Origin: Sphingobacteriia bacterium
GTDB taxonomy: Bacteria > Bacteroidota > Bacteroidia > Chitinophagales > Chitinophagaceae
Assembly: GCA_017304675.1 (NCBI GenBank)
Contig: JAFKLS010000017.1
Location: forward strand, 310,001 to 374,000
DNA length: 64,000 nt
Direction of reading: 5' to 3'
The notes beneath the pieces are model-generated. The model worked only from the letters and a program-made list of their open reading frames with translations. It was not told the origin of the DNA and did not search any database. The position numbers and the translations under genes are program-made. Of this stretch, positions 21,852 to 63,249 are shown piece after piece. Each line of letters begins with the position of its first letter. The first letter of the stretch is position 1.

Positions 21852-22547
21852 TTAATGAGCCTTCCACTGAAAAGTGTTAATCAAATGCAGCATATCTTCT
21901 TTTAAGAATCGATTTACCGGGGCTAAAGAATCTGCATTGGGTGTAGCATCAAAATACAAAGCGCCGCGCAAAAAATGCCTTACAGAATCGGTGAGTAAGA
22001 ATTGATTGGCTGTTGCTGCATCGCCGCCAATTCTAAATGCCGTTCCACTAATACCATGTATTGTTTTAAAAACACTATCTTCTATTGAGATTGCTTTACT
22101 GCTATGTTTATACGTGAGCTCGTAAGAGCCGTTAACCAGTTTATCAAGTGTATTAACAGCTACAGAATCTATATAAACGCCTTTGCCGGATTTTATTTTG
22201 TAAGTGGCTTTGCCGCCAATAATATTGTAGCTTATATAAATTCTTCCGCTAAACTGGGGGAAATCTATATTAATCCACCAAGGATTTTCCGGACTCTCAC
22301 CAAAGAAACTGGTATCTTTTACAATGTTTGCATATGCAGGATATTCGAAACTATAAGGATAGCCCGGTTGATTAAAAAGCAGGTATTTTTTTTCGGGAAA
22401 ACTTATCTTAAAGTAGCCTTTTGGTTTTGCAGTAAATGTACTGTTGCAGGAAAAGAAGACTATAGACCACAGACCATAGACCATCGTTTTTTTAAACCCT
22501 GACAATTTATTATTGCCTTTTGCTTTTTGCCTTTTGCTCATTCTCAC
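21852..22547 (-). CDS. gldD: Gliding motility lipoprotein GldD
   Basis: A lipoprotein of about 230 aa required for gliding and type IX secretion in Flavobacterium by family knowledge. The GldD body is recognised from KPKGYFKISFPEKKY, FEYPAYANI, WWINIDFPQFSGRIYISY and the C-terminal RHFLRGALYFDATPNADS. The lipobox is FFSC with the modified cysteine near residue 34. A GTG at 22547 overlaps the gldE stop by two nt; an ATG at 22541 is equally possible. Unusually, the N-terminus is made of repeat DNA: the ATG lies in a heptanucleotide array (22514-22541) and the hydrophobic core MVYGLWSIV is encoded by a second array (22458-22485). Confidence 0.88.
   Translation of the reverse strand: MRMSKRQKAKGNNKLSGFKKTMVYGLWSIVFFSCNSTFTAKPKGYFKISFPEKKYLLFNQPGYPYSFEYPAYANIVKDTSFFGESPENPWWINIDFPQFSGRIYISYNIIGGKATYKIKSGKGVYIDSVAVNTLDKLVNGSYELTYKHSSKAISIEDSVFKTIHGISGTAFRIGGDAATANQFLLTDSVRHFLRGALYFDATPNADSLAPVNRFLKEDMLHLINTFQWKAH
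22458..22485. repeat. Heptanucleotide array GACCATA type inside gldD
   Basis: Four units: GACTATA, GACCACA, GACCATA, GACCATC. On the coding strand they encode the hydrophobic core of the GldD signal peptide. Confidence 0.8.
22514..22541. repeat. Heptanucleotide array TGCCTTT type covering the gldD start
   Basis: Four units: TGCCTTT, TGCTTTT, TGCCTTT, TGCTCAT. The last unit contains the complement of an ATG start of gldD; the others encode its basic SKRQKAKG leader. Confidence 0.8.
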
Positions 22548-23869
22548 TCTTCCGTTTGCGGTTTAATGGTAACTTTTATTTTATTAAGCCTTGTTCGTTC
22601 TGCTTCCAAAACAGTGAAATCAAAATCACCGGAACTTACTACCTGGTTAACAACAGGTATTTCTCCGGCTATTTCTAAAACTAGCCCGGCAAGTGAATCA
22701 CTCTCCCCTTTTACAATATCAAAAGTATCGGCACTTAATTGCATTATTTTGCAAACATCGTTAATCATGGTTCTGCCTTCAAACACATAATTGTAATCAT
22801 CAATTTTGTTGTGATTAGATTCTTCATCATCAAATTCGTCTTTAATATCGCCTATCACTTCTTCTAAAATATCTTCCAGTGTTACAATACCACTGGTACC
22901 GCCAAACTCATCTACCACAACTGCAAAATGAATGTGTTTGCTTTGAAACTCTCTTAACAGGTCTTCTATCAGTTTCTGTTCATGCACAAAGTAAGGTGGG
23001 CGAATTAATTTGTGCCAGTCAAAGCTGTCTGTTTCCTCAATATACGGAATAAGGTCTTTGGTATGAATGATACCTGTTACTTCATCAAGATCATCTTTAT
23101 AAATAGGAATACGACTATAGTGTACTTCGCGTACTTTTCCCATAACTTCTTTAAAGGACGATTCATAGGCAATACCGCTAACATCTAACCTTGTTTTCAT
23201 TATTTGTTTAACCGTAATGTTTCCAAACTTCAAAATACCTTTTAAGATATTTTTTTCATTTTCATTCGTTCCCGTATCGGTAATATCAATGGCGTGATAC
23301 AGCTCCTCGTTGGTAATGGTGGTATTATTTTTTTTCGATAACCTTCTTTCAATAATATCGCTGTATTTCACAAGGCTTTTACTTAACCTTTTAAAGAGGT
23401 ATTGAATAAACTCTATAATAGGGGCCATTTCCTTTGCAAAGCGAATATTGTTCTGTGCCGCCAGTATTTTAGGCATTACTTCGCCAAATAATACCAATAA
23501 AAAAGTAACTGCTACAACTTTTATTAAAAATTCTATCCATTCAAAAGCAGTACCGAACTGAAAGAGTTCATCAATTAAAATATTAGAGATAATAATAATG
23601 GCAATATTAATAAAGCTATTGGCTATTAATAAAGATGCCAGTAATATTTTAGGTTGATCCAGCAGAAAGAGGATCCGTTTGTATGACTGTTGTTGCTTGG
23701 TTTTTAAAAGATTGATGTCTTTATACGTTAAGGAAAAGAAAGCAACCTCAGCTCCGCTGATAATAAAAGACAGAAATAATAAACACAATAACAATACAAT
23801 CAGTACTGTTGTGCCTTGTGTATTAATGGTACCTGGAAATATATCTATCAAAACCGAGTGATAATCCAA
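22544..23869 (-). CDS. gldE: Gliding motility-associated protein GldE (CNNM/CBS family)
   Basis: A 441-aa membrane protein of the CNNM/CorC-like class. An N-terminal CNNM domain with about four hydrophobic segments (about 20-190) is followed by two CBS motifs (about 205-330, with VKQIMKTRLDVSGI and FAVVVDEFGGTSGIVTLEDI) and a C-terminal transporter-associated domain (about 345-440, YNYVFEGRTMINDVCKIM). GldE is encoded directly before GldD in Bacteroidota and supports the gliding machinery. The only available start is a TTG at 23869, because a stop lies six codons upstream. It overlaps the gldD start, so the two are translationally coupled; ssb lies 64 nt upstream. Confidence 0.9.
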   Translation of the reverse strand: MDYHSVLIDIFPGTINTQGTTVLIVLLLCLLFLSFIISGAEVAFFSLTYKDINLLKTKQQQSYKRILFLLDQPKILLASLLIANSFINIAIIIISNILIDELFQFGTAFEWIEFLIKVVAVTFLLVLFGEVMPKILAAQNNIRFAKEMAPIIEFIQYLFKRLSKSLVKYSDIIERRLSKKNNTTITNEELYHAIDITDTGTNENEKNILKGILKFGNITVKQIMKTRLDVSGIAYESSFKEVMGKVREVHYSRIPIYKDDLDEVTGIIHTKDLIPYIEETDSFDWHKLIRPPYFVHEQKLIEDLLREFQSKHIHFAVVVDEFGGTSGIVTLEDILEEVIGDIKDEFDDEESNHNKIDDYNYVFEGRTMINDVCKIMQLSADTFDIVKGESDSLAGLVLEIAGEIPVVNQVVSSGDFDFTVLEAERTRLNKIKVTIKPQTEE

Positions 23870-40253: not shown

Positions 40254-43200
40254 ATGCAAATAAAAAGATGGAAGAACCAGCTCATGATGCTTGTGTGTGT
40301 GTTTCCTTTATTGGTTAGTGCACAGGTGAATACGGTTGAATACGGTAAAAACAGGATACAGTATAAAAAATTCAAGTATAAATTTTATCAATCCCCCAAC
40401 TTTAATATATATGTTGGCCAGGGAGGAACAGAGTTAGGCAAATTTGTTTCTCAGGTTGCAGAAGAAGAACTGCCACAACTTGAAACATTTATGGAGTACT
40501 CCTTACAACGAAGAACCAATATTGTTGTATATAACAGTTACGATGAGTATAAACAAAGTAATATTGGATTAGATCTCGACTGGCAGAATGCCGGCGGTTT
40601 AACCAAACTGGTAAATAATAAACTTGTTGTTTATTTTGATGGCAACCACGAGCATTTAAGAAGAAGCTTACGGCAGGGAATTGCCAGGGTGTTAATGGAA
40701 AACCTGTTGTTTGGCGATGATATTGGCGAAGTGGCCAGCAATGCTGCCCTGTTAGATCTGCCCAAATGGTTAACAGATGGTTACATTGAATATGCAGCAG
40801 AAAACTGGAGCACTGCATTAGACGATGAATTAAAGAGTGCCATACTTAGCGGCAACTACACCAAATTTTATCAATTTGCTTTTAACAAGCCAACCCTTGC
40901 CGGGCATGCGTTCTGGTATTACATTTCTGAAAAATATAAAAAAGAGAATGTAACTTATCTTTTATACCTGGCCAGGGTATACAAGAATCTCAACACTGCT
41001 GCCGAAAAAATTTGCAAGAAAAAATTTAAAGAAGTCTTGGCAGATTTTATGGCCTATGAACAAGATAGGTATTATAAAGATATACGCCAACGCCGTAACG
41101 CTCCAAAGGGAACATTAAGTGTGAGTGAAGATGTAAGCAAGAACGATTACTACCGTTTTCAGGCAAACCCTAACCCAAAAAATAACAACTATGCAGTGGT
41201 AGAATTTAAAAAGGGGGTTTATAAAGTTAAATATGTTGAAAATTTTTACGATACCAAAATACTATTAGATAAAGGGGTAAGAACACATTGGGGAGATATT
41301 AATCCGAATTATCCTATACTCGCCTGGGATGTAAAAGGAACAAGATTATTGGTTATTTATTTTGAAGCAGGTAAAACCAAAATGTTTGTATACGATGTAA
41401 TTGCCAAATACAAAAGGTTTAAACAGGAGATAACAGGTTTTGAGCAAGTGCTCGATGCCTCCTTTATGCTGGATGCCAATACTTTGGTAATGAGTGCGGT
41501 TAAAAACGGGCATCCTGATATTTTTATTTACAAAATTGATGAGCAAAAAACAACACAGCTTACCAACGATGTGTATTCAGACCTTAATCCCACTTTCGTA
41601 TCATTCCCCAACCGAACAGGTATCATATTTGCATCTAATCGCCCTTCACCGGATGCACCAAGCAATGATACCGTATTGCCCAGCCGTTACAGGTATAATG
41701 TTTTCCTTATTGACCTGTTAAACAACTCTAAAGTAAAGCAGATAACACAGCTTACCAATCTTAAGTATGGCAACGCCTCTTACCCCATGCAATACAATAC
41801 CAATCACTTCACTTATGTATCAGACGAAAATGGTATTGGTAATCGTTGGGCCGGATTTTTCTCTACAAAAAGAACTGGTTTAGACACGCTGTATTATGTA
41901 GGTGATGAATTATTAAGAAATCCTGCACCCAAAGAATTAGACTCTGCATTAATCGCATGGAATAAGCAGGAAGCCGATAGCATCAGCTATTTTCAGGTAT
42001 ATAAAGATTCTACCTACAGCTTTCCAATTACCAATTACCAAAGCTCACTGTTAGAATCAAGAATTGCCGGCAACAACGGGCAGGTAAGTGAAACCCGCAG
42101 AGAAGGAGATTATAAATTTTTGTACAAGTTGAAGGTAAATGAAGATGCTCTTAACAAGCGCAATGTGAACCCCAAGCCTACAGAGTACATGAAGAGCATA
42201 ATCAATACACAGAAAATAGCAGAAGGTAAGGCAACAGTGTACAATAAAAATAATGTTGCAGATACTTCTTCTAAAAAGAAAGCCATTTTTCAATCAGAAT
42301 TTGCAGACGAAAAGCCGGATACATCTCTAAAATCCAATGCACAGTCCGTTAACATTGCATCATATAAAAAAACATGGCTGCAGAAAACAAAACTGTATGA
42401 TTATAGAATGAAGTTCAGTGCCGATTATATTTTAAGTGGCCTTACCAACAATGTTCTTGTAAATCGTTATCAACCTTATAATGGTGGTTCAGGCCCTATT
42501 CAATTAAACGATGGCAACAACCTGAACTGGAGTTTCAGAGTGGGCGTTTCCGACCTATTTGAAGATATTAAATTTGTTGGCGGTTATCGTTTCGGATTAA
42601 ACTTAACAGATAAAGATGTTTTTTTCTCCTTCAAGAATTTGAGGAGAAGGCTTGACTGGCAGGTAACTTACTACAGAAGCAAGGTTTCTAATTATTTTCC
42701 TGCAGGTGGTTATGACAACGCCCTATATACCAATTTATACCAGGGAACCATCTCTTACCCTTTTGATGAAACAAGAAGTATAAGGCTTACTGCCGGTTAC
42801 AGGAGTGATAGAGGCGTGCTTAAATCTCAGGATCAGGCATCTTTAATAGCGCCGGATACCATTGCAAGATATGCATTGGCAAGAATAGAATACGTGTACG
42901 ACAATACCATTAATCCCACCACCAATATTTACAATGGCTTAAGATGGAAAGTGTATTTAGACATTAACCGGCCTGTTGGCGGAACAGGCGGCTCTAATAA
43001 AAGCACATATAATTTAGGGTTTGATGCCCGCAATTATGTAAAGATTTACCGCAACTTTATTTGGGCTACTCGTGCTGCTGCCGATTTTAGCTGGGGCACC
43101 CAAAAAATAGTGTATTTCTTAGGCGGGGTTGATGGATGGATATCACCCAGGTTTATTAATGGGAACCAGCCTGCCGCCGATCAGAACTATGCATTTCAAT

Positions 43201-46764: not shown

Positions 46765-47265
46765 ATGGCAAAAGCTAAGAAAAAAGCAGCCAAAAAAACT
46801 GTAAAAAAAGCTACTCCCAAAAAAGCTGTAAAGAAAGCTGTAAAAAAAACGGCACCTAAAAAAGTAGCGAAAAAAGCAGCACCCAAAAAGACTGTAAAAA
46901 AAGCAGCACCCAAAAAAGCTGCAAAAAGCCCCGTTAAGAAGGCTGTAAAAAAGGCCGCATCTAAAAAAGTTGCACCTAAAAAAGCGGTGAAAAAAGCAGC
47001 ACCCAAAAAAGCTGTAAAAAAGGCTGCACCTAAAAAAGTTACAAAAAGCCCCGTTAAGAAGGCTGTAAAAAAAGTAACACCAAAAAAAGTGGTGAAAAAA
47101 GCAGCGCCCCCAAAAGCGGTATCTAAAAAAACAAGTAAGCCAAAAACAAAGCAGGCACCTCAGGAAGAAGTGGTTGTTATTGAAGAAATAATTATTGCAG
47201 AACCTATACCTGTAGTAGAAATACCGGTTGTAAATACACCCGAAGCAGATACAGATTCTTTATAA
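46765..47265 (+). CDS. Lysine/alanine/proline-rich histone-H1-like protein
   Basis: 166 aa. Residues 1-130 are short repeats of the KKAAPKKAVKK type, strongly basic and without hydrophobic core, like the C-terminal tails of eukaryotic histone H1 and bacterial H1-like nucleoid proteins. From about 131 the composition switches to an acidic, Val/Ile/Glu-rich tail (APQEEVVVIEEIIIAEP... ) ending ADTDSL. Such proteins bind DNA and compact it. The basic part is encoded by near-identical AAAAAAGC/ACC units, so recombination between repeats could change its length. A good terminator follows. The acidic tail is the odd part and could modulate DNA binding. Confidence 0.8.
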   Translation: MAKAKKKAAKKTVKKATPKKAVKKAVKKTAPKKVAKKAAPKKTVKKAAPKKAAKSPVKKAVKKAASKKVAPKKAVKKAAPKKAVKKAAPKKVTKSPVKKAVKKVTPKKVVKKAAPPKAVSKKTSKPKTKQAPQEEVVVIEEIIIAEPIPVVEIPVVNTPEADTDSL

Positions 47266-59455: not shown

Positions 59456-60475
59456 ATGGCAAGCATTCAACAAGAATTAGAAAAAAGAATTTTGGTGATT
59501 GACGGCGCAATGGGCACTATGATACAGCGCCATAAATTGCAGGAAGCAGATTATAGGGGCGAACGTTTTAAAAACTGGCATGTTGACGTGAAAGGCAATA
59601 ATGATCTGTTGTGCATCACCCAACCGGAAATCATTATTGGCATTCATTTGCAATACTTAGAAGCCGGTGCAGATATTATTGAAACAAATACGTTCAGCAG
59701 TACAACAATTGCAATGGCCGATTATGAAATGCAGGAGTTTGCTTACGAATTAAATGTTGCGGCAGCACAATGTGCAAGAGAAGCCGTTAAAAGATATTAT
59801 TCAAATCAGAAATCAGAAATCAGAAATCAGAAATTCGTTGCCGGCTCTATTGGCCCATTGAATAAAACATTAAGTTTATCTCCCGATGTAAATAATCCCG
59901 GCTATCGTGCATTAACATTTGATGAAGCCGCAACAGCATATTACGAACAAATAAAAGGTTTGGTAGAAGGTGGTGTTGATTTGATTTTGATTGAAACCAT
60001 CTTCGATACACTGAATGCTAAAGCTGCCATCTTCGCTGCAAAAAAATTCTTCAGAGAAAGTGGTAAAGAACTTCCAATCATGATCAGCGGAACAATTACC
60101 GATGCAAGCGGAAGAACATTGAGCGGACAAACATTGGAAGCTTTTTACATTTCTGTCGCTCACGCTAATCCATTAAGCGTTGGTTTGAATTGTGCTTTGG
60201 GTGCACAGGAAATGAGAAGTCATATTGAAGAGCTTTCACAAATTGCATCTTGTTATACATCTGCCTATCCAAATGCTGGATTGCCGAATGCCATGGGTGA
60301 ATATGATGAGCAACCGCATCAAACAGCACATTTCATTGAAGACTGGGCTAAAGAGGGATTTGTAAATATTGTAGGTGGTTGTTGCGGCACAACGCCTGAT
60401 CATATCAAACACATTGCAGAGCAAGTAAAAAATGTTCAACCGAGAAAATTACCTGTTGTAGAAGAAACCCTCTAA
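59456..60475 (+). CDS. metH: Methionine synthase, homocysteine-binding half
   Basis: 339 aa corresponding to the homocysteine S-methyltransferase domain of MetH (usually residues 1-330 of about 1200). Landmarks: [62 protein letters not shown]-like [24 protein letters not shown] and the zinc ligands in GLNCALGA and [11 protein letters not shown]. The zinc cysteines are intact. A perfect AATCAGA x 4 array encodes an insertion [10 protein letters not shown] before VAGSIGP. The protein ends at [10 protein letters not shown], where the last two codons and the stop come from a repeat element; in one-piece MetH the sequence runs on into the pterin-binding domain. Confidence 0.92.
59804..59831. repeat. 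Perfect heptanucleotide array AATCAGA x 4 inside metH
   Basis: Four identical copies of AATCAGA in a row, inside the reading frame; total 28 nt, so gain or loss of one unit would shift the frame. Confidence 0.9.
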
Positions 60476-60573
60476 ATCTCCCTAAGGGGAGGCTTATAAA
60501 AAAAGTTTTATTAATGCAAAAAGATTTTCAAAATACAATAAACAAAAATTCCCCTTTAGGAGTTAGGGGTATT
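60467..60573 (+). repeat. Short palindromic element splitting metH
   Basis: About 107 nt. Left end CCCTCTAAATCTCCCTAAGG... with hairpin CTCCC/GGGAG; right end CCCCTTTAGGAGTTAGGGG (60551-60569). The two ends are related as inverted copies. Between them lies an AT-rich core. It looks like a REP- or MITE-type element without a transposase. Confidence 0.65.
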
Positions 60574-63249
60574 AAACCTTATTTGCGTTTATCAGGTTTA
60601 GAACCTTTGATCGTTCGTCCGGAAACCAATTTTGTGAATGTGGGAGAAAGAACAAATGTTACCGGTTCTAAAAAATTTGCACGTTTAATTAAAGAAGGGA
60701 ATTTTGAAGAAGCATTAAGTGTTGCTCGTCAGCAGGTAGAAAATGGTGCGCAGATTCTAGATATAAATATGGATGATGCATTGCTCGATGGTAAACAGGC
60801 AATGGTTACTTTTTTAAATCTTTTACAAAGCGAACCTGATATTGCGAAGATCCCCATCATGCTTGATTCTTCAAAGTTTGAGATCATTCAAGAAGGATTG
60901 AAATGTGTGCAGGGAAAATGTGTGGTGAATTCCATCTCCATGAAAGAAGGAGAAGAAAAATTTATTCAGCAAGCACAGATATGTAAAGATTTTGGTGCTG
61001 CGGTGATTGTAATGGCATTCGATGAAAACGGGCAGGCAGACACATTAGAAAGAAGAGTAAACATTTCTGAAAGGGCTTATCATATTCTAACAACAAAAGT
61101 TGGTTATCAACCGGAAGATATCATTTTCGATCTCAACATTTTTGCAGTTGCAACAGGTTTGGAAGAACATAATAATTATGGTGTAGATTTTATTGAAGCA
61201 ACTCGCATCATTAAACAAAAACACCCACTCGTAAAGATTAGTGGTGGTGTAAGTAATTTATCTTTTTCGTTCAGAGGTAATGAGCCTGTTCGCGAAGCCA
61301 TGCATTCTGTATTCTTGTATCATGCCATCAAAGCAGGAATGGATATGGGTATTGTGAATGCAGGGCAATTAGTGGTGTACGATGAAATTGAGCCGCAGTT
61401 AAGAGCGTTGTGTGAAGATGTTATTTTAAACAGAAACAATGCTAACAACGAAGCAACAGAAAAATTAATTGCATTTGCAGAAACTGTAAAAGCAAAAGGG
61501 AAGGTTGATGTAAAAGATGAAGCATGGAGAAATGAACCTGTTGAAAAACGTTTGGCACATGCACTTATAAATGGTATTACAGATTATATTGAAGCAGATA
61601 CCGAAGAAGCCCGTTTAAAATATGCTCGCCCATTAGATGTTATTGAAGGCCCTTTAATGGATGGAATGAATGTAGTGGGTGATTTATTCGGTGCAGGAAA
61701 AATGTTTTTACCGCAAGTAGTAAAAAGCGCCCGTGTAATGAAGAAAAGTGTTGCAGTGCTTACTCCGTTCATTGAAGAAGAAAAGAAAAAAAATCCGAAT
61801 GCGCAGAAAGGCGGTGCTGCCAAAATTTTATTGGCTACTGTTAAAGGCGATGTACATGATATTGGTAAAAATATTGTTGGTGTAGTATTAGGATGTAACG
61901 GCTACGATATTATTGATCTTGGTGTGATGGTTCCGGCAGATAAAATTTTAGATACGGCACAAAAAGAAAATGCAGATATTATTGGCCTTAGTGGATTAAT
62001 CACACCATCGTTAGATGAGATGGTACATATTGCCAGAGAAATGCAGAGAAGAAATATGCAACAACCGCTGCTAATCGGCGGTGCAACCACCTCTCGTATG
62101 CATACCGCCGTAAAAATTGCTCCGGAATATAAACAAGGTGTAGTGCATGTTTTAGATGCAAGTAGAAGTGTTACTGTTGCCGGAAGCTTATTGAATAAAG
62201 AACAAAAACAGTCTTTCTTAAATGATAGTTATACTGAGTACAAGAAACTGAAAGAGAATTTTGATAACAAGAAATCTGTAAAGCAATACATTAGTTATAA
62301 AGATGCGCTGAATAATAAAATGAAGATAGATTGGGATAGTTACCAACCGGTGCAACCACAATTTACAGGCATAAAAGTAATAACAGATGTTGTTGTAAAT
62401 GATCTCAGGAATTATATAGATTGGAAGCCTTTTTTTATTGCATGGGAAATGCATGGAAATTTTCCGGCGATATTAAACGATAATTTGATTGGCAAAGAAG
62501 CAACAAAATTGTATAACGATGCCAATGCTTTATTAGATAAGATTGCTGCCGAAGAATGGTTAACACCTAAGGGTGTTATTGGTTTCTGGGAAGCGGTTTC
62601 TGAAAATGATTCTGTACTTGTGAAAAGTGAAACATCAAATGTAAAATTGGAATTCCTTCGCCAACAAATTCAAAAAGCAAGTAATCAACCGAATTTATCA
62701 TTGGCAGATTTCATCAAACCCAAAGACCAGAGACCAGAGACCAAGGACTATCTTGGTTCCTTTGCAGTTAGTATTCATGGCATTGAACAACATATCAAAA
62801 ATTTTGAAGCCAGTTATGATGATTATAATAAAATTATGTTGCAGGCATTGGCTGATAGGTTAGCAGAAGCTTTTGCAGAATACTTGCATGAAAAAGTGAG
62901 AAAAGAATATTGGGGTTATGTGAAAGATGAGCGTTTAACGAATGAAGATTTGATTAAAGAACAATACCAGGGAATTCGTCCGGCACCGGGTTATCCAGCC
63001 TGTCCTGATCATACAGAAAAATATAAATTATTCAATTTGTTAAATGCAACGGAACATGTGGGTATTGTATTAACTGAGTCATTGGCAATGTACCCTGCAG
63101 CATCGGTATGTGGTTGGTATTTTAGCCACCCTAAAAGTCAATATTTTGGTATTGGTAAAATTACGAATGACCAGTTGGAAGATTATGCAAGAAGAAAAGA
63201 TACAAGTGTTGAAGATACAGAGAAATGGTTGAGGCAGAATTTGGAATAG
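60514..63249 (+). CDS. metH: Methionine synthase, pterin/cobalamin/AdoMet half
   Basis: 911 aa corresponding to the rest of MetH: pterin-binding domain (about 25-290, [33 protein letters not shown]), cobalamin cap (about 315-410), B12-binding domain with the DxHxxG ligand ([12 protein letters not shown], about 448) and the AdoMet reactivation domain with [12 protein letters not shown] (about 830). The ATG and the first 20 residues ([20 protein letters not shown]) are encoded by a repeat element, then normal MetH sequence begins ([11 protein letters not shown]). It works with the first half to transfer a methyl group from methyl-tetrahydrofolate to homocysteine. A GACCAGA array codes KDQRPETKD in a surface loop. 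Confidence 0.93.
62725..62751. repeat. Heptanucleotide array GACCAGA type inside second metH gene
   Basis: GACCAGA, GACCAGA, GACCAAG, GACTAT. Same unit type as the array in gldD; encodes KDQRPETKD. Confidence 0.8.

Follow-up and report, generated by a model that had tools for sequence, protein, structure and literature searches.

The gldD locus and its repeat-built 5' end

The window, i.e. the whole stretch of 64,000 nucleotides that was analysed, carries the genes gldE and gldD on its minus strand, with gldE as the upstream partner of gldD. The GldD product scores 197 bits against TIGR03512, above the equivalog cut-off of 120 bits. Two tandem arrays with a period of 7 nt were identified at the 5' end of gldD by Tandem Repeats Finder (TRF). 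The features of the locus are:

22544..23869, minus strand: gldE (TIGR03520, 482 bits)
21852..22541, minus strand: gldD, ATG at 22541-22539 (TIGR03512, 197 bits; PF25593, 191 bits)
22513..22537, minus strand: heptamer array 1, 3.6 copies of TTGCCTT, 88% match (sense unit AAAGGCA; lag-7 score 12)
22457..22484, minus strand: heptamer array 2, 4.0 copies of AGACCAT, 85% match (sense unit ATGGTCT; lag-7 score 12)
22446..22448, minus strand: predicted lipobox cysteine codon, in IVFFSC followed by N, as read from the sequence

The stop codon of gldE touches the start of gldD, so that arrays at this junction are translated. The position of the gldD ATG just past the gldE stop is the same in all four species of the genus, and an alternative GTG start at 22547 overlaps the gldE stop. 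Both arrays lie within the first 33 codons and cover most of the lipoprotein signal peptide. Array 1 encodes KRQKAKG, the basic n-region, and array 2 encodes MVYGLWSIV, the hydrophobic core, with a Kyte-Doolittle (KD) value of +1.69. The product begins MSKRQKAKGNNKLSGFKKTMVYGLWSIVFFSC-NS. An earlier reading of the sequence alone had placed period-7 arrays here, and TRF recovers them within 1 to 4 bases of the positions that it gave. Its proposal that the arrays encode the ATG, the leader and the core stands for the n-region and the core. It does not stand for the ATG, which belongs to the degenerate edge of array 1 and lies outside any clean unit, nor for the middle of the signal peptide, NNKLSGFKKT, which is non-repeat. 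In a lag scan of the window, four strong self-match clusters appeared at lag 7, and lags 2 to 6, 8 to 11 and most others had none. The gldD arrays are thus beyond chance.

The lipobox is relaxed (FFS followed by C), with a serine at position -1, and the CNS motif at the cysteine is kept in relatives. The predicted lipoprotein signal peptide aligns with those of relatives in its charged n-region, hydrophobic core and CNS motif. The two units of the window were also considered as a fixed mobile sequence, and this was rejected: exact copies are rare elsewhere in the same genome, and exact three-unit copies occur in just 1 to 2 of 197 genomes of the family. In another genus of the family, ATGGTCT, the sense unit of array 2, is repeated perfectly about 18 times in an intergenic region beside hisS (G069, C1:1760484-1760609, L152).

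Heptamer arrays recur in the gldD signal peptides of relatives

The comparison of gldD covered the three further species of the genus as well as 80 loci taken from public genomes, with the 120 nt before the lipobox cysteine as the signal-peptide region. A lag-7 array was present in 15 of 81 such regions, against 0.3 expected from dinucleotide shuffles, and in none of the mature parts of the same 81 loci. Other lags gave 0 to 2 arrays, except lags 14 and 21. Once lag 14 is counted too, 17 of 82 Chitinophagaceae-type gldD loci carry arrays, nearly all of them from metagenome-assembled genomes. The arrays are concentrated in the signal peptide, with 21 in 10.0 kb of signal-peptide regions versus 8 in 347 kb of flanks, a density about 90 times higher. 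The relatives thus do not share one conserved, gap-free, non-repetitive signal peptide, the outcome that the sequence-only reading had named as evidence against it; 17 of 82 have arrays, and these are built from other units. The units comprise TTGCCTT with GAGTCGG (L026, L029, L030), CTATGGT-like (L018, L023, L028, L044), TCTATCT-like (L009, L011) and AAGTTTC (L081) sequences.

Signal peptides derived from arrays resemble the array-free ones in having a charged n-region and a hydrophobic core, and the start is conserved in the four species, which favors the proposal that repeat DNA serves here as a putative export signal. Hydrophobicity is a little lower in signal peptides with arrays than in those without (2.35 vs 2.72), and given this difference the array-bearing ones may be no more than tolerated. 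The gldD signal peptide of L024 holds another type of insertion, a near-perfect palindrome (AGACCTGTCAGGTTTTAAAAACCTAACAGGTCT), and several kinds of repeat seem to be acceptable at this site. This palindrome was considered as the source of the non-repeat middle of the signal peptide and dropped, as it has few matches in the genus.

Heptamer arrays are distributed throughout the genome

We scanned 800 kb of the genome to which the window belongs (G000) together with the window, i.e. 864 kb. Lag 7 yielded 20 arrays and lag 14 yielded 14, compared with 0 to 3 for the other lags between 4 and 21. At a slightly lower threshold 26 lag-7 arrays were obtained, of which 11 are intergenic, 5 lie in the first 40 codons of a gene, 9 are gene-internal and 1 is C-terminal. 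Coding arrays thus number 15 against 11 intergenic ones, and 8 against 1 in a sample of a sister genome, G001. The gldD arrays belong to a heptamer phenomenon that extends across the genome and the family rather than being confined to gldD, which goes beyond what had been read from the locus.

The five N-terminal arrays fall in four genes, all with signal-peptide-like N-termini, and GldD holds two of them. The few cases beyond gldD are a pectinesterase (AFSFLLLAFC), the adjoining pectate lyase (AFSSLLFAF) and a lipoprotein of the transpeptidase/beta-lactamase type (YYFLLFAFYF), each with the heptamer-encoded N-terminal stretch given in brackets. The pectinesterase and the pectate lyase (L129, 7365-9454) share a near-identical heptamer-built N-terminus and belong to different families in their mature parts, as though one gene had received its signal peptide from the other.

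The nine gene-internal arrays are in frame within conserved enzymes. Hosts of in-frame arrays in this genome include MetH, methionyl-tRNA synthetase (MetRS), HemC, a UbiD decarboxylase, a methylmalonyl-CoA mutase fusion, DnaX and an ABC transporter. Wherever domain borders or solved relatives permit checking (the ABC transporter, an ArgF-type enzyme, MetRS, HemC and MetH), the arrays sit between domains or in variable loops. The array of the ABC transporter lies between its two domains, and that of MetRS between the core and the tRNA-binding domain. Further arrays of the window are:

59803..59834, plus strand: AAATCAG x4.6, inside the N-terminal MetH gene
62720..62743, plus strand: CCAGAGA x3.4, in frame in the second MetH gene, peptide PKDQRPETK
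42024..42041, plus strand: short exact array CCAATTA x2.6, inside a 1120-aa open reading frame

Methionine synthase is split in the window into two adjacent genes (59456-60475 and 60514-63249), with an in-frame heptamer array in each. Repeats of another kind were observed at 46780-47132, where Lys/Ala/Pro-rich coding repeats with periods of 27, 39, 51 and 120 nt, all multiples of 3, resemble a histone-H1-like or DNA-binding tail. Elsewhere in the same genome, six heptamer arrays lie within 8 kb around heme-synthesis genes (contig C18, L120, 7056-14751), including several inverted pairs such as AAAAGTCAAAACTGTTTTGACTTTT at about 8490. In another genome (G101), contigs C5 and C6 (L144, L145) begin inside long heptamer arrays made of AAAAGGC/AAAAGTC/AAAAGAC mixtures, which suggests that such arrays break assemblies and are undercounted.

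Array orientation follows the site in the protein

By sequence logic, a tandem array of 7 nt encodes one cyclic seven-residue peptide in all three frames, because 7 and 3 have no common factor and every frame reads the same seven codons cyclically. The peptide is thus independent of the frame, and just the exit frame of the array must be right. The two orientations encode different peptides, and orientation tracks the site in the protein, with hydrophilic peptides in loops and hydrophobic ones in signal-peptide cores. Of 14 arrays in loops, 12 encode a more hydrophilic peptide in sense than in antisense, and all four arrays in signal-peptide cores are hydrophobic. Among the gldD relatives, core arrays have a mean KD value of +1.32 versus -0.75 for n-region arrays (p = 0.0006).

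Units turn over between species and are shared between genes

Sister species of the genus, each represented by one genome, carry different units at the same site. An example is a loop of ArgH, in which four species have near-perfect arrays of (AAATTCG)n, (GATTCAC)n, (AAATTCA)n and (CCATTCA)n, respectively, with equal array length in the first three. As the unit differs while the length is kept in three of the four species, ArgH points to a frame-preserving turnover and not to switching. HemC has different units in one region in two species, and at an IspG site each of three species has an array of its own and the species of the window has none. Alignments of IspG, MetH and HemC with the sister species reveal loops that were replaced or lengthened, and no clean insertions. 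The MetH array at 59803..59834 supplants the loop NAETGNTVPKF of three sister species and adds two residues.

Within one species, units are shared between genes. In G001, exact AAATTCG arrays are found at 10 separate places, all in frame, on the sense strand and in conserved enzymes, against 0, 1 and 1 in the three remaining species, a comparison that is fair for this unit only, since it was picked from G001. The single cases in the other species are located at the start of a carbonic-anhydrase-like gene or upstream of it. Among the consensus units of 34 arrays, 43 pairs are within one mismatch of each other versus 22.6 +/- 3.7 in a composition-shuffled null, and none of 300 shuffles reached 43. 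This likeness of units and the sharing of AAATTCG argue against purely independent local slippage.

Origin of the gldD arrays

An explanation of the gldD signal peptide has to cover what is observed: the arrays and their period, their in-frame coding position, their recurrence at gldD, the species-specific units at one site and the sorting of orientation by site. We consider it likely that heptamers slip and spread throughout the genome, filtered by selection on the encoded peptide, and that the signal peptide is one of the sites. A process of this lineage would make, spread and re-homogenize tandem 7-nt arrays throughout the genome, and coding arrays would be kept solely where the encoded peptide fits. 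A T-rich sense orientation gives a hydrophobic stretch, i.e. a ready-made signal-peptide core, and an A-rich one a charged or polar stretch suited to an n-region, a surface loop or a linker. The gldD gene would be a favored site because a signal peptide tolerates changes of length and sequence, and because any array at the junction of the gldE stop and the gldD start is translated. The generating step may be slippage by 7 nt or templated copying, the unit would spread from one locus to another, and GldD is presumably exported by its array-encoded signal.

A more far-reaching form, which we put forward only tentatively, is that an active copying of sequence with a fixed step of 7 nt rewrites unlinked coding arrays to one species-specific unit. 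It is equally tentative that such copying would often leave the length of an array unchanged and would continuously supply new in-frame peptides, including signal peptides. If true, this would amount to genome-wide concerted evolution of coding micro-repeats in a bacterium.

It is rather unlikely that the gldD arrays go back to a single ancient array, inherited vertically and held to its period by local slippage as its unit drifts, a local concerted evolution with no special spread between loci. Such an origin is favored by the period-7 traces that all species of the genus show at the gldD signal peptide, by a clade of five (L016, L022, L026, L029, L030) with arrays in all members, and by the decayed arrays visible below the threshold in L015 and L067; L010 has one as well. 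However, the 17 array-bearing rows are scattered on the tree of mature GldD, which requires 10 changes, at least 5 of them forced by well-supported branches. Decayed arrays escape the detection threshold, on which the tally of gains and losses depends, so that the number of independent origins is uncertain, and fewer origins followed by decay are possible. The sharing of one unit by 10 unlinked genes of G001 is not predicted by local slippage.

An unlikely source is a mobile element composed of inverted heptamer arrays that inserts in frame, in the manner of the Rickettsia palindromic elements (RPEs), with the two gldD arrays as its arms. In-frame presence in unrelated conserved genes was found here, as was a dispersed species-specific unit in G001. 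Moreover, array 1 of gldD is the reverse complement of array 2 in L009, where the inverted repeat measures 48 nt, and also in L018 and L044; inverted arrays occur likewise at L120 8505, L120 11878 and L109 13327. But the window's own two gldD arrays are not complementary and do not form a constant palindromic element, units vary by site, and neither a shared element sequence or length nor a target duplication was seen. The equal length of the ArgH arrays despite different units, and the change of just two residues at the MetH array, also fit poorly with an inserted element. Known RPEs are in-frame insertions of about 150 bp that fall into sequence families (PMC10969869).

Phase variation, in which gain or loss of 7-nt units would switch GldD and gliding on and off as at a contingency locus, had been put forward as conceivable from the sequence and appears very unlikely. 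Seven is not a multiple of three, and in silico the gain or loss of one or two units leaves products of 5 to 46 aa (12 to 46 aa for one-unit changes), with three-unit steps of 21 nt alone keeping the frame. Against this, the arrays are short and degenerate, with merely 3.6 and 4.0 copies at 85 to 88% match instead of many near-identical ones. Like arrays occur in enzymes with little reason to switch (ArgH, HemC, PyrD, MetRS), and the ArgH array keeps its length between species while its unit changes. Furthermore, the gldD reading frame is open in every relative looked at.

It is highly improbable that gldD translation after gldE is controlled by a hairpin of inverted arrays. The inverted repeat of L009 spans the region from the gldD ATG to the lipobox and could suit such a role, but most other array-bearing loci have no inverted repeat between their gldD arrays, and the hairpin was rejected for the gldD of the window, as its arrays are not complementary. 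Chance low complexity or an assembly artefact has a negligible probability, although the genomes are mostly metagenome assemblies, given that enrichment is confined to period 7 and its multiples and recurs in four members of the genus and many independent assemblies, and that the arrays are in frame with a function-dependent orientation.

Significance and comparison with known systems

Signal peptides and loops are usually held to evolve by point change under loose constraint. Here they have been built repeatedly from tandem DNA, in frame, in many genes and in an orientation fitting the site. Under the preferred reading, that of genome-wide heptamer spreading filtered by selection on the peptide, repeat DNA would be raw material for working protein parts, such as export signals and enzyme surface loops, rather than an on/off switch, which offers a concrete and testable route from repeat DNA to working protein. 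It raises the questions of what sets the step at 7 and by what means a unit reaches unlinked coding sites without breaking the frame.

Phase-variable heptanucleotide loci are known, e.g. the repeats upstream of neuO or of HMW adhesin genes, and these have many near-identical copies and measured length variation. The gldD arrays resemble them in being heptamers at the 5' end of a gene with a cell-envelope function, but differ in their few degenerate copies. Heptamer repeats at the start of a gene thus need not imply phase variation.

Heptanucleotide LSSRs of bacteria were reportedly described by Mrazek in 2007, and the STRR sequences of Calothrix are heptanucleotide simple sequence repeats. Related repeats include TAACTGA in Beggiatoaceae, Cyanobacteria and a few Bacteroidetes (PMC4679880), and GGGAATC of Xanthomonas and GGGGATT of Nostoc (PMC4692102). 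Slippage by 7 nt was proposed for heptamers by Mrazek and colleagues, as cited in PMC4679880. The arrays described here share with these repeats the preference for period 7, the short, heterogeneous and dispersed arrays and the species-typical unit, and the genome-wide excess is of the same kind (20 lag-7 and 14 lag-14 arrays, versus 0 to 3 at other lags). Inverted pairs have also been noted in Xanthomonas. In contrast, heptamers of cyanobacteria, Xanthomonas and Beggiatoaceae are mainly intergenic (PMC4679880, PMC4692102), whereas about half of the arrays of G000, and 8 of 9 sampled from G001, lie in frame within signal peptides or conserved genes. A second difference is that the unit at one site varies here between sister species.

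With RPEs the arrays share the presence of repeat DNA in frame in unrelated metabolic genes, where the extra peptide is tolerated; they differ in being tandem heptamers of 20 to 50 nt with no constant element sequence. For heptamers in coding sequences or signal peptides of Bacteroidetes, a search limited to open-access literature yielded just the TAACTGA paper (PMC4679880). Heptamer repeats and in-frame repeat insertions are thus each known, and their combination as found here looks new.
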